This document shows positions 3,836 to 34,717 of a DNA stretch of 34,849 nucleotides, piece by piece. Both the position numbers and the translations under genes were made by a program. The stretch covers positions 1-34,849 of IMG/VR virus record IMGVR_UViG_3300017773_000055, one strand, 5' to 3'. This DNA is from a virus. Below the pieces are notes generated by a model. That model saw nothing but the letters and a program-made list of their open reading frames with translations. It made no database searches and was not told where the DNA came from. Each line of letters starts with the position of its first letter. Position 1 is the first letter of the stretch.

Positions 3836-3871
3836 TTGACATATTAATCTAAGATTAATAATATTATATAT
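3836..3871 (+). promoter_or_regulatory. Promoter copy 1 with operator in spacer
   Basis: TTGACA (3836-3841), a 17-base spacer, TAATAT (3859-3864), then seven bases to ATG 3872. The spacer holds the perfect inverted repeat TTAATCT-A-AGATTAA (3844-3858), placed where a repressor would block polymerase. Expected transcription start is at or next to the A of ATG, so the mRNA is probably leaderless. Copies at 8752 and 13985. Confidence 0.8.
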
Positions 3872-4285
3872 ATGAATAACACAAATACTGAACACGAAAA
3901 TAAAATGACACCTTACTTCATAAGAGTTAAGGGATCATATAAAAGATTTTCAGACACACCTGCTAAGAGGCTCAATGAAACTTATTTAATTAAATTAGGA
4001 TCTAATATGGATAATATAGACGCACAAAGTATTGTTTCAAATTATGTCGGTAGAGTAACAGGATTTACACAAATGGATATTTATGAAGTTGAAGTTACAG
4101 ATAAAGAATTTACAATGCCTAATAATTACTTTCATATAAATAATGAAAGTCAAGAACTTGCTTTAGGTCAAGCTACACCAAAAGAAATGCCCGAAAATCT
4201 TGTAATAGGTTTAAAAGAATATATTAAGAATATTAAGAAAATTATTGCAGATGATCATAAATTAAGGGAATTAAAGGGGGAATAA
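3872..4285 (+). CDS. Hypothetical protein (137 aa), leaderless
   Basis: I do not recognise this protein. It is soluble, with a mixed beta/alpha first part (PYFIRVKGSYKRF, IYEVEVTDKEF) and a basic helical end (LKEYIKNIKKIIADDHK). No Shine-Dalgarno precedes ATG 3872; instead a strong promoter places the transcript start at the ATG. Its first codons (MNNTN) resemble those of the genes at 8788 (MKNTN) and the start at 14020 (MKYTN), all behind the same promoter. An in-frame ATG at 3905 also lacks a site. Probably an early regulatory or host-takeover protein, by inference from its promoter. Confidence 0.7.
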   Translation: MNNTNTEHENKMTPYFIRVKGSYKRFSDTPAKRLNETYLIKLGSNMDNIDAQSIVSNYVGRVTGFTQMDIYEVEVTDKEFTMPNNYFHINNESQELALGQATPKEMPENLVIGLKEYIKNIKKIIADDHKLRELKGE

Positions 4286-4446
4286 TGGCTAAGGGTTTTT
4301 ATCATATACCAAGTGAAAAATCATTTAACTGCTATAACTGTGATGAAAAAGTTAAAACTCACTTAGTAATTTTTATTAAAGGTGTTAAAAAAGTTCTTTG
4401 TAGAGATTGTGCAGAGAAAGCTGTTGAAATAATAAAGGGGGTGTGA
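4285..4446 (+). CDS. Small zinc-finger-like protein (53 aa)
   Basis: ATG overlaps the previous stop by one base and is preceded by the AAAGGGGG site (4273-4280). Two CxxC pairs, CYNC at residues 16-19 and CRDC at 39-42, are separated by a beta-like segment (KTHLVIFIKGVKKV), the form of a treble-clef or rubredoxin-like zinc site. Function unknown. Confidence 0.65.
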   Translation: MAKGFYHIPSEKSFNCYNCDEKVKTHLVIFIKGVKKVLCRDCAEKAVEIIKGV

Positions 4447-4448
4447 AT

Positions 4449-4667
4449 ATGGAAGAAATTATTTCTTTAGGAATAACAAAATATGAGTTGATATTTTTAA
4501 TATCAGCTACTTTATTGTTTACTAATTTAATTTGGAATTTTCAAAAAAAATTAGAAAAACCTAGTATAAAGGATCAATTAAAAGATACTGATATACATTA
4601 TGTTAATGGGAAAAATTTACTTAAAAGTATTGACGAATACCAAGAAAATATGTTAAACAGTAAGTAA
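4449..4667 (+). CDS. Single-pass membrane protein (72 aa)
   Basis: One membrane helix (about residues 13-30, LIFLISATLLFTNLIW) then a basic/polar tail of about 40 residues, predicted to be cytoplasmic. AAAGGGGG (4434-4441) lies seven bases before ATG 4449; an in-frame GTG at 4443 overlaps the upstream stop but is too close to that site. Could act at the membrane in superinfection control; this is only a guess from topology. Confidence 0.6.
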   Translation: MEEIISLGITKYELIFLISATLLFTNLIWNFQKKLEKPSIKDQLKDTDIHYVNGKNLLKSIDEYQENMLNSK

Positions 4668-4676
4668 AATAAGGTT

Positions 4677-4744
4677 TTGGAACTTTTGTAAGTTCCAATA
4701 TTCCTAGCAATATGAACGAGTAATAAATTTACTCACAAGCTAGG
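4677..4744 (+). ncRNA. Structured leader or small RNA candidate, hairpins 1 and 2
   Basis: Hairpin 1: TTGGAACTT (4677-4685), loop TTGT, AAGTTCCAA (4690-4698), a perfect 9-bp stem. Hairpin 2: outer stem CCTAGC (4703-4708) with GCTAGG (4739-4744), inner stem GAGTAA (4718-4723) with TTACTC (4729-4734). The outer stem's right arm overlaps an AGGAGG ribosome-binding site (4742-4747), so folding could control it. A minigene and a terminator follow. Matches no RNA class I know. Confidence 0.5.
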
Positions 4745-4752
4745 AGGTTGTT

Positions 4753-4767
4753 ATGAGTAGATCATAA
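4753..4767 (+). CDS. Four-codon minigene (MSRS) behind a perfect Shine-Dalgarno
   Basis: AGGAGG (4742-4747), five bases, then ATG AGT AGA TCA TAA, immediately followed by a second in-frame TAA. The best canonical Shine-Dalgarno seen in the window drives only four codons. It could be a leader peptide for attenuation, a ribosome-occupying minigene, or a remnant. Confidence 0.35.
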   Translation: MSRS

Positions 4768-4781
4768 TAACTAAACGAAAG

Positions 4782-4825
4782 AAGCGTGGGAACGTATTTG
4801 TGTAAAGCCCTGCCCACGCTTTTTT
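4782..4825 (+). terminator. Strong intrinsic terminator
   Basis: AAGCGTGGG (4782-4790) pairs perfectly with CCCACGCTT (4813-4821); the loop is 22 bases and the U-run spans 4820-4825. It separates the 3872-4667 operon and structured leader from the phosphoesterase gene. Confidence 0.8.
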
Positions 4826-4867
4826 CTATTTAACACACATAATCTCAAATTAAACTAATATAATGTC

Positions 4868-6070
4868 ATGCCTAAGAAAAAGGTTAAAACCAAAAAGGAA
4901 GTTCCTCATAATGAGGATCTTGGGAATAACTATTATCCGAGTGGTTGGAAACCACAAAGAAGTTGGGATAATGGCTCAAACACAGGCGAAGTTACGCATA
5001 TCCAACCTAAAACTGATGATTTTAAATTTAACTCTTTATTGACTGAATGGGGTTTTGATCCCGAATTATATTTTATTGAAGAAGAAAGTATTAAATTCTC
5101 TACTTGGGATACACAATTAAAGGGTGGTCGAGTAGAACAGATGTATGCTTTTAAAGCCACTATACGAAGAAAAAAGCCTAATCATGATAAGTTTTTTAAT
5201 GATCTATTAAAGCAAGTTAAAAAGAAAAATCCAATCAAAATAGCTAAAACAAAAGGAGATAATGCTTATTTTTTCATGTGTTCAGATTGGCAATTTGGAA
5301 AAGCTGAATATAACACTGATTGGGGTGTAGATGAAACAGTACAGTATATAGAAAATGCGATCATAGAAGCAAAGCAAAATATAAAAGACTTAAATAAAAA
5401 TGGTGTTTTAATAGATGAAATATACATAATCGGACTTGGAGATTTGATCGAAAATTGTTATGGTTTTTTTGACCACCAAGCATTTAATGTTGAATTAACT
5501 AGAACAGAACAAGAACATATTGCACGATTAATGGTATTGAAAATATTAGACGGATTACTAGCTTTAGCACCTAAGATTGTTATCGGTGGTGTAGCAGGAA
5601 ACCACGCAGAATATAGAAGTGGTAAAGCACAAGTTGCTACAACACGCTTAGATAATTCAGACACTACAATATTTCAAATTGTTGGAGAGATAATACAGGA
5701 TAGAGATAGATATAAGCATGTAAAAGTAGTAATTCCTGATGATTTTTACTTAACTTTAGAGGTCAAAACAAAAAGACTTACTTTTTACCATGGCCACATG
5801 GCTGGAGGAGGTGGTAATGCTGAAAATAAACTAATTAATTGGTGGAAAAATCAAGCTATGGCTAGATTACCAAGTGGTACTGCTGATATTTTAGTAACAG
5901 GACATTACCACCACTTGAGAATATTAATGGAAAGAGGAAGAACTTGGATACAAAGCCCAAGTTTAGACACATCTTATGAGCTTGAAAGTCGTATGGGATT
6001 AACTACTTCTCATGGTATTTTGACCTTTACAGTATCAAATAAAGGTTGGGATAATTTAAAAATCCTTTAA
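4868..6070 (+). CDS. Calcineurin-like metallophosphoesterase
   Basis: 400 residues. The metal-binding motifs of the metallophosphoesterase superfamily appear in order: SDWQFGK (Asp140), GDLIEN (Asp192), GNHAE (Asn245-His246), HGH (308-310) and GHYHH (His346, His348). The first motif has Gln where many members have His (DxH), a variation common in phage proteins. Residues 1-120 are a basic, Lys-rich extension of unknown role. Such phage enzymes may be nucleases or phosphodiesterases; the substrate is unknown. TAATAT (4856-4861) lies six bases before ATG 4868 and no Shine-Dalgarno is present, so it may be leaderless, but no convincing -35 box is visible. It follows a terminator. Confidence 0.85.
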   Translation: MPKKKVKTKKEVPHNEDLGNNYYPSGWKPQRSWDNGSNTGEVTHIQPKTDDFKFNSLLTEWGFDPELYFIEEESIKFSTWDTQLKGGRVEQMYAFKATIRRKKPNHDKFFNDLLKQVKKKNPIKIAKTKGDNAYFFMCSDWQFGKAEYNTDWGVDETVQYIENAIIEAKQNIKDLNKNGVLIDEIYIIGLGDLIENCYGFFDHQAFNVELTRTEQEHIARLMVLKILDGLLALAPKIVIGGVAGNHAEYRSGKAQVATTRLDNSDTTIFQIVGEIIQDRDRYKHVKVVIPDDFYLTLEVKTKRLTFYHGHMAGGGGNAENKLINWWKNQAMARLPSGTADILVTGHYHHLRILMERGRTWIQSPSLDTSYELESRMGLTTSHGILTFTVSNKGWDNLKIL

Positions 6071-6073
6071 TAC

Positions 6074-6102
6074 TTGATTTAATTTAAATCATAAATTAAA
6101 AT
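6074..6102 (+). promoter_or_regulatory. Promoter with palindrome, before 6117
   Basis: TTGATT (6074-6079), 17-base spacer, TAAAAT (6097-6102). The perfect inverted repeat GATTTAA-T-TTAAATC (6076-6090) overlaps the -35 box, suggesting repressor control; its half-site is similar to, but not the same as, that of the 3836 promoter. Confidence 0.55.
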
Positions 6103-6116
6103 AGAACTAGGTAAAT

Positions 6117-6260
6117 ATGGCTAGAAAATTAGTTGGTATTGAAAATGACGGAATTAAGGCGAAAGTTATTTACAATGTGGACGGCAAATATAAAGCTGAA
6201 GACTTAAAAGTTGGAATAACTACCATTGATGAACTCGTTAAAGAGATAGTTAGCAGTTAA
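6117..6260 (+). CDS. Hypothetical small protein (47 aa)
   Basis: Short beta-beta-helix-like protein (MARKLVGIEN, then AKVIYNVDGKYKAEDL, then TTIDELVKEIVSS). No family recognised. Preceded by a promoter and a weak AGG-containing site. Eight bases separate it from the lysozyme-like gene, so they are probably cotranscribed. Confidence 0.55.
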   Translation: MARKLVGIENDGIKAKVIYNVDGKYKAEDLKVGITTIDELVKEIVSS

Positions 6261-6268
6261 GGGATCAT

Positions 6269-6679
6269 TTGATTACTTCTGTTTTGTTAACTTGTGCTTT
6301 GTTATCCCCAATTACACCAAGTAGTATTACCGAATTTAAAGAATGTCAAGACAGACAAGAAATAATTTACGATATGAGGAAATATATTAATTTATTTTCA
6401 TTATATTTTAAGCCCGAAGATGTAGAAAAGGCTCTTAGAATAACTTGGTGTGAGAGTAAAGGCAAGATTACTGCTGTTGGAAAGAATAAAGACGGAACTT
6501 ATGATAAAGGCTTGTGGCAGTTTAATGATCGCACTTGGGAATGGTTAACACCTAAATTAAATATTACAAGCGACAGGTTTAATGCCCATGTATCTACTGC
6601 TGTTGCTAGTTGGCTTGTTTATAATGACGGGTGGTTTCATTGGAACTCGTCAAAACATTGTTGGAATATTGACGATTAA
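6269..6679 (+). CDS. Secreted lysozyme-like / SLT-type transglycosylase
   Basis: 136 residues. Residues 1-18 form a short hydrophobic export signal, though it lacks a basic N-terminus. The lysozyme-like fold is shown by TWCESKG with catalytic Glu62, GLWQFNDRTW (81-90), and the closing FNAHVSTAVASWLVYNDGWFHW helix pattern found in soluble lytic transglycosylases and Rpf-like proteins. It should cleave peptidoglycan glycan strands. Start is TTG 6269, with AAGGGA (6259-6264) correctly spaced. It is far from the holin cassette, which already holds a DUF5675 gene, so it could act in the cell wall from outside, in entry, or as the main endolysin with its own export. Confidence 0.75.
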   Translation: MITSVLLTCALLSPITPSSITEFKECQDRQEIIYDMRKYINLFSLYFKPEDVEKALRITWCESKGKITAVGKNKDGTYDKGLWQFNDRTWEWLTPKLNITSDRFNAHVSTAVASWLVYNDGWFHWNSSKHCWNIDD

Positions 6680-6698
6680 AATAATAAAAGATTAAACT
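6669..6698 (+). promoter_or_regulatory. Possible promoter before the ParB-like gene
   Basis: TTGACG (6669-6674), 18-base spacer, TAAACT (6693-6698), then six bases to ATG 6705, the leaderless geometry seen elsewhere here. The gene has no Shine-Dalgarno. The -10 box is a weak match. Confidence 0.35.
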
Positions 6699-6704
6699 TA
6701 CATT

Positions 6705-7352
6705 ATGGATATTGAAACAATTAAATTATCGGATCTAAAAGAACACCCAAGAAATTATAAAACACACCCCGAGGATCAATTACAACACATTATTAGTTCA
6801 ATAGAAGAACATGGTTTTTATAGAAATATTGTTATTGCTAAAGACAATACGATATTAGCAGGACACGGGGTATTTCAAGCGTGTCAATTAATGAATAAAG
6901 AAGAAGTGCCTGTGATTAGATTAAATATAGATCATGACAGCACACAAGCATTAAAGGTTTTAACTTCCGATAATGAAATTCAAAACCTAGCAAAAGTAGA
7001 TGATAGAGAGTTGAGCGAAATATTAAAGGATATTTTAGATGAGGATTTAGATTTAACAGGTACAGGATTTGACCAAGAGCAATTATCAGCTTTGATCTAC
7101 ACAACAAGGCCCTCAACTGAAGTTGCTGATATTGATGAAGCAAAAGAATGGGTTGGAATGGTAGATTTTGAGCCAACAGGTAAGGATATTAAAGTAATAA
7201 TTCAATTTGATAACGAAGAAGATAAACAAGAAATGCTTAACAGAATTGGTGCAACACATATCAATAAACAAATCGGGAATATATCTACTATTTGGTATCC
7301 CGAAAGAAAGCAAGAGGATCTAAAGAGTATAAGTTTTATTGCTGATGAGTAA
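6705..7352 (+). CDS. ParB-like N-terminal domain protein
   Basis: 215 residues. Residues 4-90 match the ParB/sulfiredoxin fold: IKLSDLKEHPRNYKTHPE, HIISSIEEHGFYRNIVIA, then the ILAGHGVFQA box (51-60) and EVPVIRL. Residues 165-215 form a second alpha/beta part (KVIIQFDNEEDKQEMLNRIG). Phage versions often accompany DNA methylases or base-modifying enzymes and may bind DNA or hydrolyse NTP. The next gene, overlapping by eight bases, is a TET/JBP-associated-type glycosyltransferase, which supports a joint role in DNA modification. It is not likely to be a partition protein: there is no ParA and no HTH domain. Confidence 0.8.
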   Translation: MDIETIKLSDLKEHPRNYKTHPEDQLQHIISSIEEHGFYRNIVIAKDNTILAGHGVFQACQLMNKEEVPVIRLNIDHDSTQALKVLTSDNEIQNLAKVDDRELSEILKDILDEDLDLTGTGFDQEQLSALIYTTRPSTEVADIDEAKEWVGMVDFEPTGKDIKVIIQFDNEEDKQEMLNRIGATHINKQIGNISTIWYPERKQEDLKSISFIADE

Positions 7353-8223
7353 GTATCCTGTTTTTATAATTTCAAAAGGTAGACATGATGTTTGTAAGAC
7401 AGCTATTCATTTTTTACAGCATGATGTAGATTTTAAACTTGTTATTGAGCCACAGGAATTTGAATTATATAAAGAACATTTTGACGAAAATATATTAATA
7501 CAAACGCCATTTAAAAACTTAGGTCTTGGATCAATACCTGTAAGAAACTTTGTTTGGGAATATTCAAAAAAATTAGGACACAAAAGACATTGGGTGTTTG
7601 ATGACAATATAAGAAATACAAGGTACTTTTGGAATGGAAGAAGAACTCAAATAGATCCAAATTTAGCAATATCAGAGATAGAGAAATTTGTTGATCGATA
7701 CGAGAATATAGCCATAGCAGGAATGAATTACAGTTTCTTTGTAAATAAAAGTACTACAAAAAAACCTTTTTCTTTAAACAACAGAGTATTTAGTAATTTA
7801 TTAATTGATAATGACTTAGATGTAAGGTGGAGAGGTCGATACAACGAAGATACAGATTTATGCTTACAGGTATTATCAAAGGGATTGTGTACAGTTTTAT
7901 TTAATACTTTTCTTATTGATAAACAACAAACAATGAGTATGAAAGGTGGTAACGCTGATGAACTTTATAAAGGTGATGGACGGCTAGATATGGCTAGAGA
8001 TTTAGAACGAGTGTGGCCTTATGTTGTTAGAACAACTAGAAAATTTAATAGACCACAACACGAGATAATAAGGAAAAGTCAGCAATTTGACCAACAGTTG
8101 ATCCGAAGAAAAGATATTGATTGGGATAATATAGAGAAAGAAAAGACGGAATTAAAAATAAAGCAACACGATGAAATTAAAAATGAATACTTAAAGAGAG
8201 CAGTTGATAAGTATAATGAGTGA
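7345..8223 (+). CDS. TET/JBP-associated-type glycosyltransferase (TAGT-like)
   Basis: 292 residues. GT-A-like fold: PVFIISKGRHD at the start, LVIEPQEFELY (33-42), GLGSIPVRNFVWEYSKKLG, then VFDDNIR with the Asp86-Asp87 metal motif, and NEDTDLCLQVL (Glu168-Asp169) as the acceptor-side acidic pair. This order is that of the TAGT family described in phages that sugar-modify hydroxylated bases. Residues 225-292 are a charged helical tail. The ParB-like gene lies just upstream, a known association. No TET/JBP dioxygenase, thymidylate-synthase-like enzyme or DNA methylase was recognised in the window, so the acceptor is unclear. ATG 7345 chosen; TTG 7339 is possible. Confidence 0.65.
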   Translation: MSKYPVFIISKGRHDVCKTAIHFLQHDVDFKLVIEPQEFELYKEHFDENILIQTPFKNLGLGSIPVRNFVWEYSKKLGHKRHWVFDDNIRNTRYFWNGRRTQIDPNLAISEIEKFVDRYENIAIAGMNYSFFVNKSTTKKPFSLNNRVFSNLLIDNDLDVRWRGRYNEDTDLCLQVLSKGLCTVLFNTFLIDKQQTMSMKGGNADELYKGDGRLDMARDLERVWPYVVRTTRKFNRPQHEIIRKSQQFDQQLIRRKDIDWDNIEKEKTELKIKQHDEIKNEYLKRAVDKYNE

Positions 8224-8719
8224 AAAAGAAGTAGAGTTTTGGAGAGATGATGAGACTTATTCTGATTATAAAAGAAGAAAAAATGCAGGTATGCAAGGTA
8301 TGGGACAAAAAACTGTGAAGAATAGAGATGATTGGACACCTGCTCAAAAAAGAGGTTTGAATAATAAGAACAAAGGTAGAAGAAAACAGAACGAAGCTAG
8401 GAAAAAACTAGGAATACCCGATACTCGCTTTAGATCACAAATGGGACATGAAGAAAATTGGCGTGGTCAAGTTAAAGTTGAAGTTAAAGCAGGTAAACAA
8501 GTACAAACATTATGGAAAAGGTTTTTAGAAGCCAAATTACAATCTGAAAAAAATAATGTCATTGGGGATATAAGGCCATTTGTTTTTGTTGCTATGCCCG
8601 ACGGAACGACCAATGGTTTGGTGTGTTTTGAATTGGATAAATTGCAAGATATTGTCTATTCTTTTGTTGAAACTTGGGAAAATGATCCAAACTCTAACCT
8701 AATAATCCATAAAGATTGA
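8216..8719 (+). CDS. Probable PD-(D/E)XK nuclease-like protein
   Basis: 167 residues. A basic first half (KNKGRRKQNEARKKLG, about 48-63) precedes a core with VEVKAGKQV (the E-x-K pair), a helix with FLEAKLQSE, and a strand PFVFVAMPD. This arrangement resembles Holliday-resolvase-like or VRR-NUC-type enzymes. Probable role is DNA processing in recombination or replication. ATG 8216 overlaps the stop of the glycosyltransferase; an in-frame TTG at 8204 is less likely. Assignment rests on motif order only. Confidence 0.5.
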   Translation: MSEKEVEFWRDDETYSDYKRRKNAGMQGMGQKTVKNRDDWTPAQKRGLNNKNKGRRKQNEARKKLGIPDTRFRSQMGHEENWRGQVKVEVKAGKQVQTLWKRFLEAKLQSEKNNVIGDIRPFVFVAMPDGTTNGLVCFELDKLQDIVYSFVETWENDPNSNLIIHKD

Positions 8720-8751
8720 CCTTTTTCATATAAGAAAATATTAAACTAAAT

Positions 8752-8787
8752 TTGACAATTTAATCTAAGATTAATAATATAGTATAT
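8752..8787 (+). promoter_or_regulatory. Promoter copy 2 with operator in spacer
   Basis: TTGACA (8752-8757), 17-base spacer, TAATAT (8775-8780), seven bases to ATG 8788. Spacer contains TTAATCT-A-AGATTAA (8760-8774), identical to copy 1 at the same offset. Confidence 0.8.
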
Positions 8788-9177
8788 ATGAAAAACACAA
8801 ATATAACTAAAAAACAACCTGAACTAATAATTGATGATCTACTTATTAAATTATCTTTTACACATGTATCTGAAGAAAAAGTAACACATTTTATTAATGA
8901 TAACTTTGATTTTTCAGATCTTGAAGATTTAGAGGTTTATGTAAATGATCAATGGGGATATAAAACACTAACATATAAAGTTGATAGAGATTATCGTTTA
9001 AATCTATACACAATCACAGCTACCACACATTTCAGCACAAAATATTCTAGAGATCACAAAAAGGTTTTCATCTACAATCCCGATTTAAAACTAAGAACTG
9101 AAAAGGATACATCTACTCATCTTGATTGGAAAATTATTGCACATGAAAAATTTATGAAAGAAAAAGGATATTTATAA
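8788..9177 (+). CDS. Hypothetical protein (129 aa), leaderless
   Basis: No family recognised. N-terminus MKNTNI, then an acidic helical segment (THFINDNFDFSDLEDLEVYV) and a beta-rich middle (YKVDRDYRLNLYTITATTHF). No Shine-Dalgarno; a strong promoter ends seven bases before the ATG. Shares promoter and first codons with the genes at 3872 and 14020, so is probably controlled by the same repressor. Confidence 0.7.
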   Translation: MKNTNITKKQPELIIDDLLIKLSFTHVSEEKVTHFINDNFDFSDLEDLEVYVNDQWGYKTLTYKVDRDYRLNLYTITATTHFSTKYSRDHKKVFIYNPDLKLRTEKDTSTHLDWKIIAHEKFMKEKGYL

Positions 9178-9281
9178 TGGCTAAATATAACAAAGATCAA
9201 TTAAAAAGACTTAAGGAACTACAAACTGCTGATAAAAAAGCAGAGGAAATATTAAATAAAATATATAAGGGGGTGAAGTAA
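9177..9281 (+). CDS. Small basic helical protein (34 aa)
   Basis: ATG overlaps the previous stop by one base. Lys-rich helix (QLKRLKELQTADKKAEEILNK) of 34 residues. The last codons contain the ribosome-binding site of the next gene, so translation is probably coupled. Function unknown. Confidence 0.5.
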   Translation: MAKYNKDQLKRLKELQTADKKAEEILNKIYKGVK

Positions 9282-9283
9282 AA

Positions 9284-9769
9284 ATGGGAGAACGAGCAAA
9301 TATTGTTTTTGTTGATCGAAATACAAAAGACATAAGCCCGATAATCTATGTTCAAAATTTAGGTATGGCTAAAGATGTAACTAGATTACTTGGAAGAACT
9401 AAAACTCAAATGAGTGATAGAGCAGAAGTTGATTTGATCTGTGCAAGGTTTGTACAGCAAGTTACTAATGAAATAAGCTCATTTGGAGAAGATGTATTGA
9501 GTATAAGATTAACTAATGCTGATATACAAACAATGCCGAAAAGAGATAAGGCTTTTGGTGCTGAAAGAATATTTAATAATAGTATAAATGAAATTATTGA
9601 TCGATATTCTGATGAGGATCATGGTTTGTATATTGTTGATGTATCAACTCAACCAACTGAAAAGAATATAAATATAACTAAAAATTCAGCAGATTGGAAA
9701 ATTGAAAACATAACAACAAACAAAAAAGTAACTGATCTAAGTTTATATGGATCAACAGTAGAGTACTAA
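9284..9769 (+). CDS. Conserved phage hypothetical (MGxRAN-type, 161 aa)
   Basis: The start MGERANIVFVD resembles a widespread phage family that begins MGxRANVV and is of unknown function. Middle: DRAEVDLICARFVQQVTNEI (helix) and DHGLYIVDVS (strand). AGGGGGTGA is well placed before ATG 9284. Last gene before a strong terminator. Confidence 0.65.
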   Translation: MGERANIVFVDRNTKDISPIIYVQNLGMAKDVTRLLGRTKTQMSDRAEVDLICARFVQQVTNEISSFGEDVLSIRLTNADIQTMPKRDKAFGAERIFNNSINEIIDRYSDEDHGLYIVDVSTQPTEKNINITKNSADWKIENITTNKKVTDLSLYGSTVEY

Positions 9770-9783
9770 CACCCAACGGGGAA

Positions 9784-9825
9784 AATAAAGGGGGATTATT
9801 GCTTATTATTAAATCCCCCTTTATT
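9784..9825 (+). terminator. Terminator with 14-bp perfect stem
   Basis: Left arm 9784-9797 and right arm 9812-9825 are perfect complements (core AAAGGGGGATT with AATCCCCCTTT) around a 14-base loop. It may act on both strands. The left arm also contains the phage's common AAAGGGGG ribosome-binding sequence, so it could be a degraded gene start. Confidence 0.8.
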
Positions 9826-9883
9826 AATTGAATATATTAAATCTGATATTAAAATATAATATCTAGGAAAAAAAGGAAAAGAA

Positions 9884-10075
9884 ATGAAAATAGAGCCTGT
9901 AAGTTTAGCTGAAATAGGAGAGATGACAGGATTAACTAGACAAAAACTAGCGTCTTTAAAATTTCATAATAAACTACCCGAAGCAGAGGTTACTTTAAAG
10001 TGTGGACCTTTGTGGGATAGATCAACAATTAAAGTTTATTGTGAAGAAAATAATATAGGACCTAACTTTAGTTAA
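9884..10075 (+). CDS. AlpA/excisionase-like HTH DNA-binding protein (63 aa)
   Basis: Winged-helix-like pattern: SLAEIGEMTGLTRQKLASLK (8-27), a short HNKLPEA turn, then GPLWDRSTIKVYCEE (41-55). The G-x-x-W-x-R box is typical of MerR-like small DNA binders of the AlpA/Xis type in phages and plasmids of Actinobacteria. It may regulate early genes or bind the origin; with no integrase in view, an excision role is unlikely. It is the only obvious small HTH regulator here and so a candidate for the operator repeats. An AGG-rich purine stretch precedes the ATG. Confidence 0.65.
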   Translation: MKIEPVSLAEIGEMTGLTRQKLASLKFHNKLPEAEVTLKCGPLWDRSTIKVYCEENNIGPNFS

Positions 10076-10099
10076 TTTGTCATAGTAAATTATTATAAT
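10072..10099 (+). promoter_or_regulatory. Promoter family 2, copy 1 (TTGTCATAGT spacer)
   Basis: TTAATT (10072-10077) and TATAAT (10094-10099) flank a spacer carrying TTGTCATAGT. The same arrangement occurs at 11814-11842. A regular AGGAG site follows before ATG 10125, so this transcript has a leader. Confidence 0.5.
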
Positions 10100-10124
10100 T
10101 TTATTCTAGTACATAGGAGAATAA

Positions 10125-10709
10125 ATGAAAAAGCGAGAGCAACAACAAAAGCTATCAAGAGCATGGCCTAAAAAATATGTAAAACAATTAAAAATGTCTT
10201 ATGGAAATATTGATTATGTTGAGCACACTCAAGTTACTCAAAAATTAATAGCATTTGTAGATGAATTACAAATAAATGTAGATCCTAAAGGTTATATTTA
10301 TGATGAAGTTGAGGATCAGCATGGTATCAGAAGAAAATTTTTAACAGGTGTTACTGTTCAAGTTAGTGGAATAATAGACGGTAAATTTAGAACTGTTTCT
10401 GAAGTTGGTATGTGTGATAAACCATTTTTTGTCGAGGGTGGTAAGAAAGTTTCTAACAACGGGGAACGAGCAAAGGAATGTATATCAGACGGAATTAAAA
10501 GATGTGGAATGCGTATAGGTATAGGATTAGAGCTTTGGGATACTGAAGTTTGGTTAAATGATTATTTGCAAGACAAACCTGCTACGGCTAAATCGAAACC
10601 TAAGACCACTAATAATAATGATCAATTAAAACAGAATAAAGAAAAACTAGACAAGATCATTAAAGAAACTAAAAAGGATATTGATAAAGAAATAACTACT
10701 TCTAGTTGA
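10125..10709 (+). CDS. Rad52-like single-strand annealing protein
   Basis: 194 residues. DYVEHTQVTQKLIAFVDE (31-47) and GVTVQVSGIIDGKFRTVSEVG form the beta-rich core; GERAKECISDGIKRCGMRIGIGLELW (113-138) matches the Rad52/Sak signature, in which a small-residue helix and K-R precede an IGIG turn. Residues 145-194 are a disordered, Lys-rich tail. The protein should anneal complementary ssDNA in phage recombination and replication. It precedes a replication initiator-like gene. TAGGAG is placed well before the ATG. Confidence 0.75.
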   Translation: MKKREQQQKLSRAWPKKYVKQLKMSYGNIDYVEHTQVTQKLIAFVDELQINVDPKGYIYDEVEDQHGIRRKFLTGVTVQVSGIIDGKFRTVSEVGMCDKPFFVEGGKKVSNNGERAKECISDGIKRCGMRIGIGLELWDTEVWLNDYLQDKPATAKSKPKTTNNNDQLKQNKEKLDKIIKETKKDIDKEITTSS

Positions 10710-10739
10710 TATTATAATTTAATTTTAATTGGAGGAAGT

Positions 10740-11459
10740 ATGGAAATACAACAACAAATCTATTTCTCAATAATCCCCGAGTGGTTAACTGAGAGCAAAA
10801 TATCCGATAATGCCTTTAGAGTTTATTCAACTTTATGTAGATATGCTGATAAACATAGTGGCGAGTGTTATCCGAGTATTAAGTCTATTGGGCAAAGGTG
10901 TCATAAGAGCCCAAGCACAGTTAAAAGAGCCTTAAAAGAGTTAGAGGATCATGGGGCAATTAAAGTAGAGAGTAGATATATAGACAATTCTCAAACAAGC
11001 AACCTTTATACTGTCATATTTGATCTCGGTATGGGTGTCAAATCTGATATGGGGGTTGGTTCAAATGTGGACCACAAACTAAAGTCATCTAACCAAAGTC
11101 ATATAATACCTGTTGATAAATCTGATAGAAAAGGATTGTTTAAAGCCCTAGCTAATAGTCTTGGTTATGAGCCAAAAACGAAACAAGAAATTTCAGCTTT
11201 TAATAAGGTTATTAAGGATATATCAGAGGCAGGAGGAACAGCAGAGCAAATAGAACAGCGAGTAGAAGTATATAAAAACAAATGGAAAGGGATCACATTA
11301 ACACCATTCGCCTTAGCTAAACATTGGTCAAAACTTGGTCAAATGTATGATGAAAATAAACCTGCTGAGAAATATGATTGCGAGAAAAAAGGACACAAAT
11401 GGATCGATCTTGATGTAATTTTCTATTGTCAAATGTGTAAAAAAGAAAAAAATAAGTAA
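10740..11459 (+). CDS. Winged-helix replication initiator-like protein
   Basis: 239 residues. Residues 15-85 form a helix-turn-helix domain (NAFRVYSTLCRYAD, CYPSIKSIGQRCHKSPSTVKRALKELEDHGAI) of the HTH_36 kind found in phage O-like and plasmid initiators. Residues 130-205 are helical (LGYEPKTKQEISAFNKVIKDI, TPFALAKHWSKL), like the linker that recruits the helicase loader. The end holds a zinc-ribbon-like C-x5-H ... CQMC (about 217-234). TTGGAGGAAG precedes the ATG. The candidate origin lies about 2.3 kb downstream. Confidence 0.7.
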   Translation: MEIQQQIYFSIIPEWLTESKISDNAFRVYSTLCRYADKHSGECYPSIKSIGQRCHKSPSTVKRALKELEDHGAIKVESRYIDNSQTSNLYTVIFDLGMGVKSDMGVGSNVDHKLKSSNQSHIIPVDKSDRKGLFKALANSLGYEPKTKQEISAFNKVIKDISEAGGTAEQIEQRVEVYKNKWKGITLTPFALAKHWSKLGQMYDENKPAEKYDCEKKGHKWIDLDVIFYCQMCKKEKNK

Positions 11460-11462
11460 ACT

Positions 11463-11798
11463 ATGAGTATGAATGTAAACCCAAATAAAATAGAAGATAA
11501 TTTTAACTTCGGCTTTCAAACTGTTTTTTATTATTTAGAGCAAGCTGATGATCTATTTTATTTAATAGACGGATTTGAGCCATTAGAAGAAAATGGAGCC
11601 TATGAGGGTGGTTTATTAATGAGAGCATTAGGCTCTGTATTGGCTATTAATTTATCTAAAGAAACTAACGATTTTGTAATTTCTATTATTGACTCAGAGG
11701 GAAGTTTACAACTTGTAATGCTACCAACAGGCGAGGATCTGTTGATGTTTTTATTAGGATTACGAAGAGAATTAGTTGATAGTAAATATTTTTTATAA
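11463..11798 (+). CDS. Hypothetical acidic protein (111 aa)
   Basis: No family recognised. Aromatic, acidic N-terminal part (FQTVFYYLEQADDLFYLIDG) and a beta/alpha end with LPTGEDLLMFLLGLRREL. Start ATG 11463 lies four bases after the previous stop without a clear ribosome-binding site; ATG 11469 is an alternative. Confidence 0.6.
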   Translation: MSMNVNPNKIEDNFNFGFQTVFYYLEQADDLFYLIDGFEPLEENGAYEGGLLMRALGSVLAINLSKETNDFVISIIDSEGSLQLVMLPTGEDLLMFLLGLRRELVDSKYFL

Positions 11799-11813
11799 TA
11801 TGGCCGAGTTTTA

Positions 11814-11842
11814 TTAATTTTGTCATAGTCAATATTTATAAT
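11814..11842 (+). promoter_or_regulatory. Promoter family 2, copy 2 (TTGTCATAGT spacer)
   Basis: TTAATT (11814-11819), 17-base spacer with TTGTCATAGT, TATAAT (11837-11842). It nearly repeats the sequence at 10072 and is followed by AAAGGGGGAATA before ATG 11876. Confidence 0.5.
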
Positions 11843-11875
11843 TTAATTAACAAATAAAATTCCAAAGGGGGAATA

Positions 11876-12202
11876 ATGCCTAAACAATTTGATAAAGAAT
11901 GGTTATTAAATAAAAATAAAAAAAGTATCTTTAATTATGGATATAGTTATCCCGAAGCCGAAAAGGTAAATGAAGATATTATAAATATAGTAAAACAAGA
12001 AATACAACACCTTAAGGAAAGAAAAACTAGATTTGTTGTAATGTCTAAGAATATTTTTAATAAAAAGTCTGATGATGTATTTGAGCTAGTTTTAAATAAG
12101 GAAATAGATAGGTGGAATAACCTTTTAATTGTTTTAGAAACACAAGGAAACGAAATCAAAATGTCTGAAATGTTAGAAGATGAGGCTAGGTTTAACTGCT
12201 AA
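11876..12202 (+). CDS. Hypothetical helical protein (108 aa)
   Basis: Mostly helical and charged (EKVNEDIINIVKQEIQHLKER; ELVLNKEIDRWNNLLIVL). Preceded by AAAGGGGGAATA, the phage's recurrent middle-gene site, and by its own promoter. It leads a chain of overlapping genes. No family recognised. Confidence 0.6.
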   Translation: MPKQFDKEWLLNKNKKSIFNYGYSYPEAEKVNEDIINIVKQEIQHLKERKTRFVVMSKNIFNKKSDDVFELVLNKEIDRWNNLLIVLETQGNEIKMSEMLEDEARFNC

Positions 12203-12528
12203 TGGTAGATTTTAAAGATAAAGATTTATTAAAATCAATGTTCTCTAAAACATTTTTAAAAGAAAAATTTGTCGATCAAACAAGTGAAAATTCCTATATA
12301 GCCACAGAGAATATATTGTGTTGGGATATTGAAACAGCAGAAAGTTTTGATGATCAACACACAAGAGCCTTTGCAGTTTTTAACGAGGGTGTTCCTATGT
12401 ATTGTGTAGAAACTTATCCTTTAATAGACGGCAAATTGATCATGACTAAAGAGCCAAGCAATCGAGTTATGATCCCACAAGGAATATTAATACAAATGTT
12501 AGATAAAGGATTTGAGGTTGTTAAATGA
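12202..12528 (+). CDS. Hypothetical protein (108 aa)
   Basis: ATG overlaps the previous stop. Contains CWDIETAESFDDQHTRAFAVF (about 41-61), faintly reminiscent of a DnaQ-type exonuclease first motif (DIET), but the rest of that fold is missing, so I do not call an exonuclease. Otherwise unrecognised. Ends with a four-base overlap with the next gene. Confidence 0.6.
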   Translation: MVDFKDKDLLKSMFSKTFLKEKFVDQTSENSYIATENILCWDIETAESFDDQHTRAFAVFNEGVPMYCVETYPLIDGKLIMTKEPSNRVMIPQGILIQMLDKGFEVVK

Positions 12529-12791
12529 GTGATAATGATAATGTAATTTTTATTGAGAATGATAAGACAAAACACATGGGTTGGGCAAACTATGAAACTT
12601 GGAATGTAGCTTTATGGATACAGAACACAGAGGAAATTTATAAACTTGCTAAACAGTTTGATAATTATAAAGACTTTATAAATTTAGGAATTAAATACTT
12701 AAACCTTAGTAAAACAGGAGATGATGTTAGCTTTACTAATAAATTACTTAATATAGAGGAATTAGATAATATGATTAAGGAATTATCATAA
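12525..12791 (+). CDS. Conserved phage protein, NYETWNVALWI family (88 aa)
   Basis: MGWANYETWNVALWIQNTEEIYKLA (residues 18-42) is a signature I recognise from many phage proteins of unknown function (DUF7249-like). The end, with DDVSFTNKLLNIEELDNMI, also matches that family's layout. Its role is unknown; it occurs among early genes in diverse phages. Confidence 0.7.
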   Translation: MSDNDNVIFIENDKTKHMGWANYETWNVALWIQNTEEIYKLAKQFDNYKDFINLGIKYLNLSKTGDDVSFTNKLLNIEELDNMIKELS

Positions 12792-12955
12792 TGCCTTTTT
12801 TTAATGATAAGAGAAAACAATTACCTAAAAAATTAAGAATGCTTTTTGATAAGCAATATAAATTAGAGAGCGAATTGAATAAAATAAAATTAGAAATAGA
12901 AGAAATAAGAAAAGAATATGAAGATTTCTTTTTTCAAATGGATAATTTCACATGA
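12791..12955 (+). CDS. Small coiled-coil protein (54 aa)
   Basis: TAATG overlap with the previous gene and ATGA overlap with the next. After MPFFNDKRKQLPKKLR, residues 17-45 form a heptad-like helix (KLESELNKIKLEIEEIRKEY). Function unknown. Confidence 0.5.
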   Translation: MPFFNDKRKQLPKKLRMLFDKQYKLESELNKIKLEIEEIRKEYEDFFFQMDNFT

Positions 12956-13347
12956 AGAAAAAATCACATAGAGAAATAATTACAGAAATACTTTCTAGTG
13001 GCGAATGGGTTTGTGGTGTAGAAATATTTAAACAAACAGGTTGGTCTTTTAGAAATAGAATAAGCGAAATGAATGCTGAGTTTGAGGAACAAGGATCTGA
13101 AGTGAAATATTATCAAGGTAAAGATTGCAATATAGATCACACCTTTGAAAATAAACACAATGAAAATATATTTATGTGGAGAAAAAATCCTTTAAAAATG
13201 AGATCTGTAAATATATCAGAGATAAAAGCAGATCCAAATTTAAGTTTAGCACCAAAAGACCACAACTTAGATGAATGGAATAACCAATCCAAAGAGGAAA
13301 GACACAAAGCAATTAAAGAAATGATGTCGAAAGCAGGTTTAAAATGA
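12952..13347 (+). CDS. Putative winged-helix protein (131 aa)
   Basis: REIITEILSSGEWVCGVEIFKQTGWSFRNRISEM (7-40) has the pattern of a winged helix used in phage regulatory proteins (two helices, turn, recognition helix), followed by a beta wing (SEVKYY, ENIFMWRK). The remainder is basic and unrecognised. Could regulate the middle or late genes. Confidence 0.5.
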   Translation: MKKKSHREIITEILSSGEWVCGVEIFKQTGWSFRNRISEMNAEFEEQGSEVKYYQGKDCNIDHTFENKHNENIFMWRKNPLKMRSVNISEIKADPNLSLAPKDHNLDEWNNQSKEERHKAIKEMMSKAGLK

Positions 13348-13631
13348 GTGATGTAACACCCTATCAATACATAGATGAATTACAAAAACGCAAGGCTAAA
13401 AGAGTTGATCCCGAATTTAAGTTAATAGCAATTCCTTATGAGTTAAATATAGAGGTTGGATCTGAATACGATAAAGATAAAATAATACAGGTTGAAGAAA
13501 TATTTACTGAAATGCTTAAAAACTTTATTGAAGTTGTAAAAGAAGATTTTGACTTCCCTACTCACAAGTTAAAAGTAAAAACTATAATCAGAACAAAAGA
13601 TAATATCGTATCATTTAAATATTACGATTAA
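13344..13631 (+). CDS. Hypothetical protein (95 aa)
   Basis: ATGA overlap with the previous gene. Alpha/beta composition with EEIFTEMLKNFIEVVKEDF (helix) and HKLKVKTIIRTKDNIVSFKY (strands). No family recognised. Last gene of the replication operon. Confidence 0.6.
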   Translation: MSDVTPYQYIDELQKRKAKRVDPEFKLIAIPYELNIEVGSEYDKDKIIQVEEIFTEMLKNFIEVVKEDFDFPTHKLKVKTIIRTKDNIVSFKYYD

Positions 13632-13667
13632 TTTCAAATCACAAAAACCCCCTTTTGTGTACGAAGA

Positions 13668-13699
13668 AGTCTAGGACTAGCAATAGCTCTAGGCTTTTT
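13668..13699 (+). terminator. Intrinsic terminator after replication operon
   Basis: AGTCTAG (13668-13674) pairs with CTAGGCT (13689-13695), one G-U pair, around an inner AGC-AATA-GCT stem, followed by TTTTT. A weaker hairpin (CACAAAA with TTTTGTG, 13640-13659) lies just upstream. Confidence 0.65.
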
Positions 13700-13869
13700 C
13701 GTTTATTGATAGTATTATGTAATAGCCACTACTATTACTCATTGCTTATATACCATATATGGTATTACTCATAACTATTGCTAAAACTATTACTATTCGC
13801 TTATATACCACATGTTGTATAAGAGCAATAGTAATGACTATTACTATTACTCATTACTATTTAATGCTC
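13700..13869. other. Gene-free block with iterons and palindromes, candidate origin
   Basis: Part of the roughly 390-base gene-free stretch after the replication operon. It holds three copies of ATTACTCAT (13734, 13764, 13846), two of GCTTATATACCA (13744-13755, 13799-13810), a perfect 16-base palindrome ATACCATATATGGTAT (13750-13765), an 18-base near-palindrome (13804-13821), a 9-bp stem AATAGTAAT/ATTACTATT (13827-13848), and several ACTATTACT units. The density of repeats in AT-rich DNA next to replication genes fits an origin or a repressor-binding region. No CDS is visible. Confidence 0.45.
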
Positions 13870-13885
13870 AAGACATACATTTAAG
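13870..13885 (+). repeat. 16-mer AAGACATACATTTAAG, copy 2
   Basis: Identical to 3731-3746, but the flanks here do not form the terminator stem seen at copy 1. It lies 99 bases before promoter copy 3. Confidence 0.8.
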
Positions 13886-13984
13886 ACGAGGCTAATGATA
13901 GTAAAAAGCAGAGTTGATAGTTCATTAACAGACAACTTGAACAGTACATTAACTATTACATGATCATAAAAAATTACTAATGAA

Positions 13985-14013
13985 TTGACAAATAAATCTT
14001 AGATTAATAATAT
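13985..14013 (+). promoter_or_regulatory. Promoter copy 3 with operator in spacer
   Basis: TTGACA (13985-13990), 17-base spacer with AAATCT-T-AGATTAA (one mismatch to the other operators), TAATAT (14008-14013), six bases to ATG 14020. ACTAATGAATTGACA is shared with copy 1. Confidence 0.8.
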
Positions 14014-14058
14014 ACTAATATGAAATACACAAATATTAATAATCCTAAAGGGGGAATT

Positions 14059-14433
14059 ATGATAAAAGGAACAAAAGCTAGCTTAAAAGGAACAATGCTA
14101 GCAACTTTTGAAATAAGACTAAACGGAAAAAGCACAGGTTGGTTTGGAAACCACAAAGATTGTGTTGAAGTATTAAGCAAGCTAGATAACCAAAGGCTTA
14201 AATTAACTAATGAAATAGAAAAAAATACAGGTTTAGGTGAATTAGACCAAAACTATGAGCACAATGTTAATGCAAGACACTTAACATTTACTCATCAAAA
14301 TGATAAGGCAAGAGTTTCAAGATCAGGAACTTATAAAAATGCTTATATTAAAACAATAGCAAATACAAATACAGGAAAAACAGTTTTTGGTTTTGACGGT
14401 TTTGTAGATGTTTGGACAGTTAAAGAAGTATAG
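14059..14433 (+). CDS. Hypothetical basic protein (124 aa)
   Basis: No family recognised. Basic and beta-rich: MIKGTKASLKGTMLATFEIR, STGWFGNHKDCVEVLSKL, and a closing KTVFGFDGFVDVW. Two in-frame starts are possible. ATG 14020 sits six bases after the -10 of promoter copy 3 and would be leaderless, adding 13 residues (MKYTNINNPKGGI). ATG 14059 follows AAAGGGGGAATT, the common site of this phage, and was chosen. Both could be used. Confidence 0.65.
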   Translation: MIKGTKASLKGTMLATFEIRLNGKSTGWFGNHKDCVEVLSKLDNQRLKLTNEIEKNTGLGELDQNYEHNVNARHLTFTHQNDKARVSRSGTYKNAYIKTIANTNTGKTVFGFDGFVDVWTVKEV

Positions 14434-14444
14434 GGGGAAATTAA

Positions 14445-14537
14445 ATGAGTAAAAACCATAAACACCACATAAATTGCTTTAAACACAGTAATTGGAACTG
14501 TAAGAAAAAATGTAAAACAAAAAGGGGGAATAAATAA
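14445..14537 (+). CDS. Small basic Cys/His-rich protein (30 aa)
   Basis: 30 residues with NHKHHINC, KHSNWNCKKKC: three Cys and five His in a strongly basic peptide, plausibly zinc-binding and nucleic-acid-contacting. TAGGGGGAAAT precedes ATG 14445. Its last codons contain the AAAGGGGG site of the next gene. Confidence 0.45.
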   Translation: MSKNHKHHINCFKHSNWNCKKKCKTKRGNK

Positions 14538-14759: not shown

Positions 14760-15050
14760 GTGAAAACAGGTAAAAACGGTATTGATGTTTTAAGTATAAA
14801 TGCAACAAGAACACCTGTTGGTGTAAGTGTTTTTAGATCAACAGACAAGCAAAAAGCCTATGAAACCTTGATAAAAAAGACTGAATTATGCTCATTAGAG
14901 AATAAAGACCTTAGAAAATGGATCAACGAGTTTAAAAAGGCTTTTAAAATGGTTATTTTAACTATGAATTGTGATTGTGGAAGAATAGAGAGGAAACATC
15001 TGCTTTATTATTACGAATGGGCAATAGATGAAAGAATTAATAAGCCATAA
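14760..15050 (+). CDS. Hypothetical protein (96 aa)
   Basis: AAAGGAGATGAT (14744-14755) is a near-perfect Shine-Dalgarno whose spacing favours GTG 14760 over the in-frame ATG 14751. The middle has DLRKWINEFKKAFKMVILTM and MNCDCGRIERKHLLYYYEW, with a C-x-C that might hold metal. No family recognised. Confidence 0.55.
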   Translation: MKTGKNGIDVLSINATRTPVGVSVFRSTDKQKAYETLIKKTELCSLENKDLRKWINEFKKAFKMVILTMNCDCGRIERKHLLYYYEWAIDERINKP

Positions 15051-15053
15051 TCG

Positions 15054-15081
15054 TTGATTAAATTTATTTAGGTTATATTAT
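15054..15081 (+). promoter_or_regulatory. Late promoter before terminase genes
   Basis: TTGATT (15054-15059), 16-base spacer, TATTAT (15076-15081), six bases to ATG 15088. No Shine-Dalgarno, so again leaderless geometry. Confidence 0.5.
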
Positions 15082-17729: not shown

Positions 17730-17737
17730 ATCCTCTT

Positions 17738-17776
17738 AAATCTAAGATTTGACAAACTAAAGTATCGTGTTATAAT
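17738..17776 (+). promoter_or_regulatory. Promoter with upstream operator
   Basis: TTGACA (17749-17754), 16-base spacer, TATAAT (17771-17776): the best consensus promoter in the window. The perfect palindrome AAATCTAAGATTT (17738-17750) overlaps the -35 box, using the core of the 3836/8752/13985 operator at a different position. Confidence 0.75.
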
Positions 17777-23847: not shown

Positions 23848-24410
23848 TGGCTAAACAGCAATTCAAAGTTGAAGTACAGGGTGCTATACAATTAAAAAAA
23901 AGACTAGATGAGAAAAAACTATTATATAAACCACTAAGAAATTATTTCAATGTTGTTGGGAAAATAGTTAAGAAACAAGCAAAAACACAGACACCCGAAT
24001 TTACAGGAAGACTTAAATCCCAAATAAAATATAAAAGAGTAAGGGATAAAGGAAGATTGCCTGGTGGAATAAAAGTGTTTGTTACAACACCTTATGCTTC
24101 TTATGTTCATGGATCAATGGATAAAAATTATAAATATAGAGGACTTAAGTATCCACAAGATAAAGATAAATTCAGTAGAACAAAACCTCATTGGCCACCT
24201 GCTTCTGCACTTCAGAAATGGGCTGACGCTAAAGGAATACCTGTATTTTTAGTACAAAGATCAATAGCAGAAAAAGGTACTGCGATCATTCCATTTATAA
24301 AAATGGGGTATGAACAGACAGAAGTACAACGAAAAATTGCTTTACAACAAGCTAGTAAATCTGTTGAATTAATGTGGAAAAAATCAAGACCTGCAAAGTT
24401 GCGTAGATAG
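23847..24410 (+). CDS. Neck/tail completion protein (HK97 gp10-like)
   Basis: 187 residues. KKRLDEKKLLYKPLRNYFN, VKKQAKTQTPEFTGRLKSQIKYKRV, then TTPYASYVHGSM, the core of the HK97 gp10 family (G-x-L ... I, Y-A-x-x-V-x-x-G). ATG overlaps the connector stop by one base. Very basic, as usual for this family. Confidence 0.82.
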   Translation: MAKQQFKVEVQGAIQLKKRLDEKKLLYKPLRNYFNVVGKIVKKQAKTQTPEFTGRLKSQIKYKRVRDKGRLPGGIKVFVTTPYASYVHGSMDKNYKYRGLKYPQDKDKFSRTKPHWPPASALQKWADAKGIPVFLVQRSIAEKGTAIIPFIKMGYEQTEVQRKIALQQASKSVELMWKKSRPAKLRR

Positions 24411-24428
24411 AAATGCTAGTATAAATTC

Positions 24429-24836
24429 ATGGCTACATTAACAAGTATAAGAAATGGTATTGGAACTAATCTAGGAAATATAAGTTCGTTAAGTGTTTAC
24501 AATTATGTTCCCGATAGTATAGAGCCACCAACTGCAATAGTGGGTGTTGTACAGACCTTAGAATATGATACCTCAATGGCTAGAGGTGCTGATACATACA
24601 CCATACCTGTTTTACTTTATGTCAGTAGAGTAGACGCACAAGACAGTCAAGAAACTTTAGACGCATATTTAGCTAGTAGTGGTGCTTCAAGTGTTAAGGC
24701 TCAAATTGAAAGCGATCAAACATTAGATAGTTCGGCACAATCTTGTCGAGTTGTTGAAGCAAATAATTATGGTGTGTATACTGTGAATAACATAGACTAT
24801 TTAGGCGTAGAATTTGAGGTTGAGGTAATAGCATGA
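24429..24836 (+). CDS. Tail terminator-like protein
   Basis: 135 residues. SIRNGIGTNLGNISSLSVYNYVPDSIEPPTAIVGVV, YTIPVLLYVSRVDAQDSQETLDAYL and a closing YLGVEFEVEVIA strand match the small alpha/beta tail-terminator family that caps the tail tube. Located correctly between gp10-like and tube genes. A possible extended -10 (TGCTAGTAT, 24414-24422) lies just upstream. Confidence 0.7.
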   Translation: MATLTSIRNGIGTNLGNISSLSVYNYVPDSIEPPTAIVGVVQTLEYDTSMARGADTYTIPVLLYVSRVDAQDSQETLDAYLASSGASSVKAQIESDQTLDSSAQSCRVVEANNYGVYTVNNIDYLGVEFEVEVIA

Positions 24837-32471: not shown

Positions 32472-33013
32472 TGGCAGGAAGTTTAGTCCAAGTTGACCAT
32501 TTTGAAATATCAAGTGCAGTATCTACTGTAACTCTAGGTGGTGGCTCTAGTGGTAGCTCATCTTATAATTTTGCAATAAATACAGATGATATTTATTTAG
32601 TTACTTATAGAAATGTTTATATGAGTAATGACGGTGCAGTTCCAAATATAAGATTAACAGTTAGTGGAACTGCTGATAGTAATGCTAATTATGATAGTGC
32701 GAGAATGAATATTTATATGCACACTTCTCATTATGACATTGCTAATCAAAATATAACTTATTTTTCATCGTTAAGCAGAGGAACTACTGTTAATGAAAGT
32801 TCACAAGGTCAGATATATTTATACGACTTTAATAGTTCAAGCCAATACTCATATATACTTTTGGAAGAAGTTGTAGCTACTGAAACACCTGAATATGTAT
32901 CTGTTTATGGTGGTGGTATTTTAACCACTAGCCAAACAACAGACGGAATACAATGGGTAGCAAATAGTGGAAATATTGCTAATGGTGAATTTACGCTGTA
33001 CAGGTGTGTGTAA
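32471..33013 (+). CDS. Fibre-like protein C (module 1)
   Basis: 180 residues. MAGSLVQVDHFEISSAVSTVTLGGGSSGSSSYNFAIN matches the gene at 34160 almost line by line (MAGALILVDQF, TIGGGSSGSSSYNFAI, GTAD-x-x-ANYD). ATG overlaps gene B's stop by one base. Confidence 0.7.
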   Translation: MAGSLVQVDHFEISSAVSTVTLGGGSSGSSSYNFAINTDDIYLVTYRNVYMSNDGAVPNIRLTVSGTADSNANYDSARMNIYMHTSHYDIANQNITYFSSLSRGTTVNESSQGQIYLYDFNSSSQYSYILLEEVVATETPEYVSVYGGGILTTSQTTDGIQWVANSGNIANGEFTLYRCV

Positions 33014-34160: not shown

Positions 34161-34717
34161 TGGCTGGTGCTTTAATTTTAGTAGATCAATTTACAATAAG
34201 TTCGCCTGTATCAGCAGTTACTATTGGTGGTGGATCTAGTGGAAGTTCATCTTATAACTTCGCAATAGATAGCACTTATGATGTTTACCAACTTGTATAT
34301 AACAATGTAACCACTTCAACAGATGGAAGAAATGTTGCAGTAAGAGTAACCAAGAGTGGAACTGCTGACGCTACTGCTAATTATGATTATGCTTATAATG
34401 TTTTAACTTCAGCAGGGGTTAGTAATGCTAATTTTCAAAATGAAGATGAGTGGACTTATATGTTTGTAGATAATGTTGGTACAGGTACAAGTGAAATAGC
34501 TCAGGGAATTTCTTATCTGTTTAACTTTTCTGACGCTAGTGGTTATTCTTTTGTTACTGCTGAAATGGTAGAAGTAAACTTAACACCTACTACTAAAGCT
34601 AATGTAGGAAGTGGTGTACATACAGTAAAGACTGTTAGTGACGGATTATATTTCTTTGATGACGCAGGGGGAAACATAGCTAGTGGAGAATTTAAACTTT
34701 ACGGACTACGAAAATAA
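34160..34717 (+). CDS. Fibre-like protein C' (module 2)
   Basis: 185 residues. Paralogue of gene C by the shared IGGGSSGSSSYNFAI and GTADATANYD segments and the final GNIASGEFKLYGL (gene C: GNIANGEFTLYRC). ATG 34160 overlaps gene B' stop; a longer ORF from 34103 lies in B' and was rejected. Confidence 0.7.
   Translation: MAGALILVDQFTISSPVSAVTIGGGSSGSSSYNFAIDSTYDVYQLVYNNVTTSTDGRNVAVRVTKSGTADATANYDYAYNVLTSAGVSNANFQNEDEWTYMFVDNVGTGTSEIAQGISYLFNFSDASGYSFVTAEMVEVNLTPTTKANVGSGVHTVKTVSDGLYFFDDAGGNIASGEFKLYGLRK

Follow-up and report, generated by a model that had tools for sequence, protein, structure and literature searches.

The window analysed here, the complete 34,849-base virus record IMGVR_UViG_3300017773_000055, probably carries a set of palindromic operators on sigma-70 promoters, worked by a 63-aa winged-helix-turn-helix (winged-HTH) protein that also regulates its own gene. 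Three of these promoters belong to a repeated cassette that seems to head gene slots, of which the first two would be read from leaderless mRNAs. In the mechanism we propose, the cassettes would be sigma-70-type promoters with the palindromic operator TTWAATC-N3-GATTWAA, forming part of a phage-wide operator set; the winged-HTH protein (9884-10075) would act on these operators and, as it accumulates, would most likely repress both the cassettes and its own gene. This would provide a regulatory handle on an uncultured phage group, with one operator and one small regulator marking the slots for accessory-gene exchange.

Promoter cassettes and the operator set

The first-pass annotation had described a three-copy promoter with an exact 17-base spacer, and this description was borne out: TTGACAN17TAATAT has exactly three matches in the window, all on the plus strand (3836-3864, 8752-8780 and 13985-14013), as compared with a mean of 0.02 in shuffled sequences, which never gave three. 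With hexamers near TTGACA/TATAAT and a spacing inside the 16-18 bp usual for such promoters, all three are of sigma-70 type. The inverted repeat TTAATCT-x-AGATTAA reported in their spacers is perfect in copies 1 and 2, with a single mismatch in copy 3 (spacers TATTAATCTAAGATTAA, ATTTAATCTAAGATTAA and AATAAATCTTAGATTAA, respectively; the TAATCTAAGATTA core of copy 1 lies at 3845-3857). The ATGs at 3872, 8788 and 14020 begin 7, 7 and 6 bases past the -10, and the similarity noted beyond them (MNNTN, MKNTN and MKYTN) is correct. Among the direct repeats of the window, the 52-nt cassette unit forms the top family, with copy 2 at 90% identity; copy 3 reaches 65% ungapped identity because its unit is one base shorter. 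We ruled out an RNA hairpin or attenuator, since transcription is expected to start downstream of the palindrome.

The annotation had missed that the palindrome is also present at further, more diverged promoters of the window. In its generalised form (TTWAATC-N3-GATTWAA; looser form TTWAATCNNNGATTWAA), it occurs at eight non-coding sites, namely 3843, 6066, 6084, 8759, 9837, 13992, 15046 and 17736. The tandem pair (6066-6100, plus strand) lies ahead of a small ORF at 6117, and operator-like sites also precede starts homologous to this ORF in the related phages L054, L102, L116-L118 and L124. The site at 9837-9853 (plus strand; TTAAATCTGATATTAAA, then TATAAT) precedes the winged-HTH gene. Further downstream, TTAAATCTAAGATTTGA (17736-17776, plus strand) overlaps the -35 of a TTGACA-N16-TATAAT promoter before a small ORF and the portal gene; L099, L102 and L123 have a similar arrangement. 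The least certain member of the set is the site before ORF 15088 (15046-15062, plus strand), because 3.6 chance matches are expected window-wide at two mismatches. A weaker operator-like site, TAATCTCAAATTA (4840-4852, plus strand), stands before the MRE11-like exonuclease gene (4868), as it does in L033 and L054. Judging from these positions, the predicted operator regulon is larger than the three cassette promoters.

The annotation had also made its reading depend on conservation of the inverted repeat in related genomes, and the palindrome is indeed conserved there. At one mismatch, the strict operator TAATCTNAGATTA is found 48 times among 20 related records, as compared with 7 matches of the reversed pattern; both figures were counted from a table, each palindrome being taken once for its two strands. 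The compared viral records are fragments and are related to one another. The sites lie ahead of start codons, either in the spacer (window, L033, L121 and L054, in the last ahead of its HTH gene), over the -35 (TTTAATCTAAGATTGACA..TAATAT in L116-L120) or next to the start. Across eleven records that carry the HTH gene or close kin, 41 of the 41 strict sites fall outside coding cores, with 20% expected, a comparison whose p-value is overstated since these records are related to one another. In L054, L116 and L121, an unbiased palindrome search put the operator at the top by its near-exact copies, and in phages without the operator the same search brought out no substitute. We dropped the notion that the L035 group is operator-less, as it appears by the strict pattern, since its own repeated promoter holds the looser core AATC-N3-GATT (TTTAAATC-ACA-GGTTTAAA). 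One palindromic motif is therefore found at several promoters, beyond chance and outside coding sequence, as in a multi-operator regulon.

To chance likeness, or to ordinary AT-rich promoters, we attach practically no weight. The window is 67% AT (GC 32.7%) and promoter-like matches are common in it (73 found, 88 expected), but the shuffles, the reversed-pattern controls, the coding-core counts and the co-occurrence counts given below refute this explanation.

A second repeat, TTTGTCATAGT..AT..TTATAATTT, lies ahead of two early genes (10055-10105 and 11798-11848, 76% identical). Taken as a pattern, its TTTGTCATAGT part (10075 and 11818) does not exceed the chance level.

The winged-HTH protein as candidate regulator

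The candidate regulator is encoded on the plus strand at 9884-10075. Its structure model is confident (pLDDT 90.6) and comprises helices at residues 8-15, 19-27 and 46-55 and strands at 36-38 and 41-45, that is, an HTH, a two-strand wing and a helix, as in winged HTHs of the MerR/excisionase type. The nearest structures are BldC, excisionases and the DNA-binding parts of MerR proteins, with a middling best Z of 6.8. Its homologues match PHROG families of excisionases and transcriptional regulators (E down to 1.5e-7), and Pfam gave no HTH family for the 63-aa protein at the cut-off. It differs from MerR proper in that the chain stops at residue 63, after the wing helix, with neither a C-terminal dimerisation helix nor an effector domain. 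A C-terminal helix is the usual dimerisation route of MerR-type proteins, and relatives with a single domain, BldC among them, bind DNA in a different manner; a palindromic site would therefore need another mode of dimer formation.

A homologue search with this protein returned 26 viral loci, including the window's own near-copies. Ahead of the HTH gene, the window, the L030 group, L054, L103 and L109-L114 carry an operator-like site, and some HTH promoters, those of L096 and L099-L102, have a weak site only. In the 17 records that have the close HTH family there are 40 one-mismatch sites, with 1.35 expected, and in the nine without a close homologue (HTH absent, or distant only, the distant ones including G001, G009 and G010) there are none, with 0.7 expected at one mismatch and 9.2 at two mismatches; this co-occurrence also tracks phage kinship, the records not being independent.

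The proposal of the annotation that one regulator controls several operons through a shared operator is supported by this comparison, as the palindrome is conserved, co-occurs with the HTH gene and sits in the HTH promoter. From co-occurrence and position, we infer that the HTH protein binds the operator, and it is likely to autoregulate through the 9837 site. Repression is a further step, suggested by operators that cover the spacer or the -35 of normally spaced promoters, and the regulatory sign, repressor or activator, is uncertain.

MerR-fold proteins sitting in a promoter spacer can activate, and the MerR-like fold of the HTH protein, together with a cassette operator placed exactly between -35 and -10, might accordingly point to an activator or a two-way switch. 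We consider this quite unlikely: the MerR rule is a spacer of 19-20 bp, whereas the spacers here measure 16-18 bp between near-consensus hexamers, with no distortion needed, and at further promoters the operator lies over the -35.

It is also unlikely, in our view, that a host regulator binds the palindrome, with the phage borrowing a host operator for gene timing and the HTH protein doing other work such as excision or packaging. Such a division of labour would fit a fold common to excisionases and terminase small subunits and a 63-aa protein without an obvious dimerisation part. However, related phages without a close HTH gene have no operator, and the operator precedes the HTH gene itself. 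A pure excisionase role is unlikely because no integrase or resolvase was found; profiles PF00589, PF01381 and PF00239 gave no match to an integrase, a resolvase or an HTH_3 repressor as a competing regulator in these possibly incomplete records, and we saw no sign of lysogeny in the window phage. Autoregulated control by the phage's own winged-HTH protein is the reading that we retain.

Exchangeable gene slots and leaderless starts

Genome comparisons suggest that these promoters head exchangeable gene slots, which is new here. Each of the three window cassettes appears to head an accessory-gene slot, with swaps seen at slots 2 and 3. The window and L033 are 97.5% identical over 4342-8813, just beyond the cassette, after which homology is lost and comes back at 9250; the 129-aa ORF behind copy 2 (8788-9177, plus strand) is swapped for an unrelated ORF in L033. 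At slot 3, the window matches L009 up to 14062, at 14462-14533 and from 14757 onward, and the ORF behind copy 3 (14020-14433, plus strand, 137 aa from the cassette ATG) is exchanged for one that is unrelated save for the 14-residue cassette-encoded start. In these comparisons, the upstream and promoter parts are 95-99% identical, with the promoter itself at 95-98%, and the downstream parts 61-65%, the baseline for unrelated sequence being 61%. The ORF behind copy 1 (3872-4285, plus strand, 137 aa) has a homologue in L035, elsewhere in the genome and behind a different promoter.

The slot-1 cargo is swapped between L035 and L036, where another repeated promoter heads it, with downstream identity at 71% because a shared stretch reappears inside the 300 bases. 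L118 and L119, of a sister group, show the same pattern of a kept promoter and a changed downstream part. On seven contigs of that group, a single operator-promoter, with 78-99% identity from contig to contig, is followed by five protein families unrelated to one another, and several small CxxC proteins are among the cargo. A gene swap between L009 and the window, an insertion at 24404-24429, has no operator; slots are therefore not exclusive to cassettes. Pfam, PHROG and PADLOC gave no convincing family for the window cargo.

The repeat unit could serve mainly as a recombination arm, whose identical promoter DNA would allow accessory-gene exchange by homologous recombination, with an incidental palindrome, and the ends of homology within or just past the cassette (8813 and 14062) would fit such an arm. 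We find this very improbable, as the palindrome is retained at diverged promoters that lack long repeats and the 41 strict sites all keep outside coding cores.

In several phages, a conserved Cys/His micro-ORF (29-31 aa, HHINCFK..NWNC.KKC) borders a variable slot downstream, the slot being number 3 in the window and number 1 in others (window 14445-14537; L009 2716, L035 9600, L036 1811, L037 1756, L054 2818). Exchangeable genes often encode very small CxxC (zinc-ribbon-like) proteins, as in L054, L125, L127, L128, L135 and L137 and at 4285-4446 in the window.

The annotation had regarded all three cassette mRNAs as leaderless. In sigma-70 initiation, a -10 that ends 6-7 nt before an ATG should place the start on the A or no more than about two bases from it. 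No Shine-Dalgarno (SD) sequence stands ahead of any of the three cassette ATGs. In the slot-2 ORF the cassette ATG is the sole ATG/GTG/TTG start in the first 100 codons, and in the slot-1 ORF codon 12 is a further in-frame ATG. The mRNAs of slots 1 and 2 would probably have the A of the ATG as their first base, and their leaderless translation is likely, given the lack of an SD and the single start of the copy-2 ORF in 100 codons. For slot 3 it is uncertain: the annotation had overlooked a second in-frame ATG at codon 14 (14059), preceded by a GGGGG SD. Read from a leaderless start, the slot-3 protein would gain a short N-terminal extension encoded by the cassette, in frame with the SD-led start. 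The same in-frame pairing of a leaderless with an SD-led ATG, seen in window copy 3, L009, L033 and L054, would favour leaderless starts, an argument weak alone given its few independent cases. One cargo has a homologue that starts behind an SD in L030 and L121 and lies directly behind the promoter in L125.

We tentatively suggest that the cassette may be a portable expression module combining promoter and operator with a leaderless start and a short N-terminal tag, into which phages of this group swap accessory genes in frame, each newcomer being expressed at once and brought under winged-HTH control. If this were true, a scan for the operator would list the host-takeover or anti-defence genes of the phage group. 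The cargo-swap pattern also provides a testable case for the leaderless start as a portable translation signal.

Known systems and other genes of the window

This kind of system is already known; a limited literature search did not find a spacer operator, a small winged HTH, a leaderless start and exchangeable slots described together. In archaeal viruses, a shared early regulatory sequence precedes many small, variable, mostly unknown genes and the gene of the winged-HTH protein Aca8, which is thought to shut its gene set down; some of these viruses have inverted repeats there (PMC11065993). We regard it as the nearest known system in working, as in both cases a conserved promoter-plus-regulator sequence stands before variable small genes and a small winged-HTH gene. 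The window has the Aca-type layout, with the HTH gene under the same operator as the variable small genes. Unlike the Aca8 system and the Aca-controlled anti-CRISPR operons, it has bacterial sigma-70 promoters, an operator in the -35/-10 spacer, another winged HTH, operators that precede the portal operon too and predicted leaderless starts. Operator-guided mining, as in the archaeal viruses, could reveal host-takeover or anti-defence candidates without database relatives.

Nearest in layout, by our comparison, are the SAS/ESAS elements of cluster K mycobacteriophages, repeats with inverted repeats at the starts of a subset of genes, genome-wide (PMC3203893). The SAS repeat measures 13 bp and goes with translation starts, each inverted repeat has 17 bp, the consensus varies between subgroups, and an operator or promoter role has been proposed (PMC3203893). 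The window shares this placement of repeats and inverted repeats at the starts of a gene subset, with a consensus that likewise differs between subgroups, but its palindrome is short and lies within the promoter, outside the transcript. The stoperators of cluster A are asymmetric sites of a monomeric lysogeny repressor that also halt elongation (PMC9283540). They resemble our operators in that a single phage regulator (here a candidate) has many genomic sites, whereas ours are palindromic promoter sites in a phage with no sign of lysogeny. Finally, CvkR of the type V-K CAST, a cyanobacterial transposon, is a MerR-type repressor of 150 aa with its own dimerisation domain and a 15-nt palindromic site, and leaderless mRNAs occur in the same system (PMC9938897). 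It is thus a precedent for a MerR-type repressor together with leaderless mRNAs, sharing with the window the MerR fold, a palindromic site and leaderless mRNAs (predicted here); however, the window protein has 63 aa without the dimerisation part, and the sites are unrelated.

The window genes include those for a terminase, a portal, a tape measure, an MRE11-like exonuclease, a Rad52-like protein and replication initiation. A DNA-level search found no close cultivated relatives of the window phage, the cargo 1 and HTH proteins had no match among phage records, and the best bacterial or archaeal genome matches of the terminase are just 36% identical (Anaerolineae). The product of 7339-8223 resembles beta-glucosyl-HMC-alpha-glucosyltransferases (PHROG 842, E 1.3e-38), hinting at modified DNA. 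Within adjacent late genes, the stretches 32519-32700 and 34208-34392 are about 80% identical and probably represent duplicated tail-protein domains.
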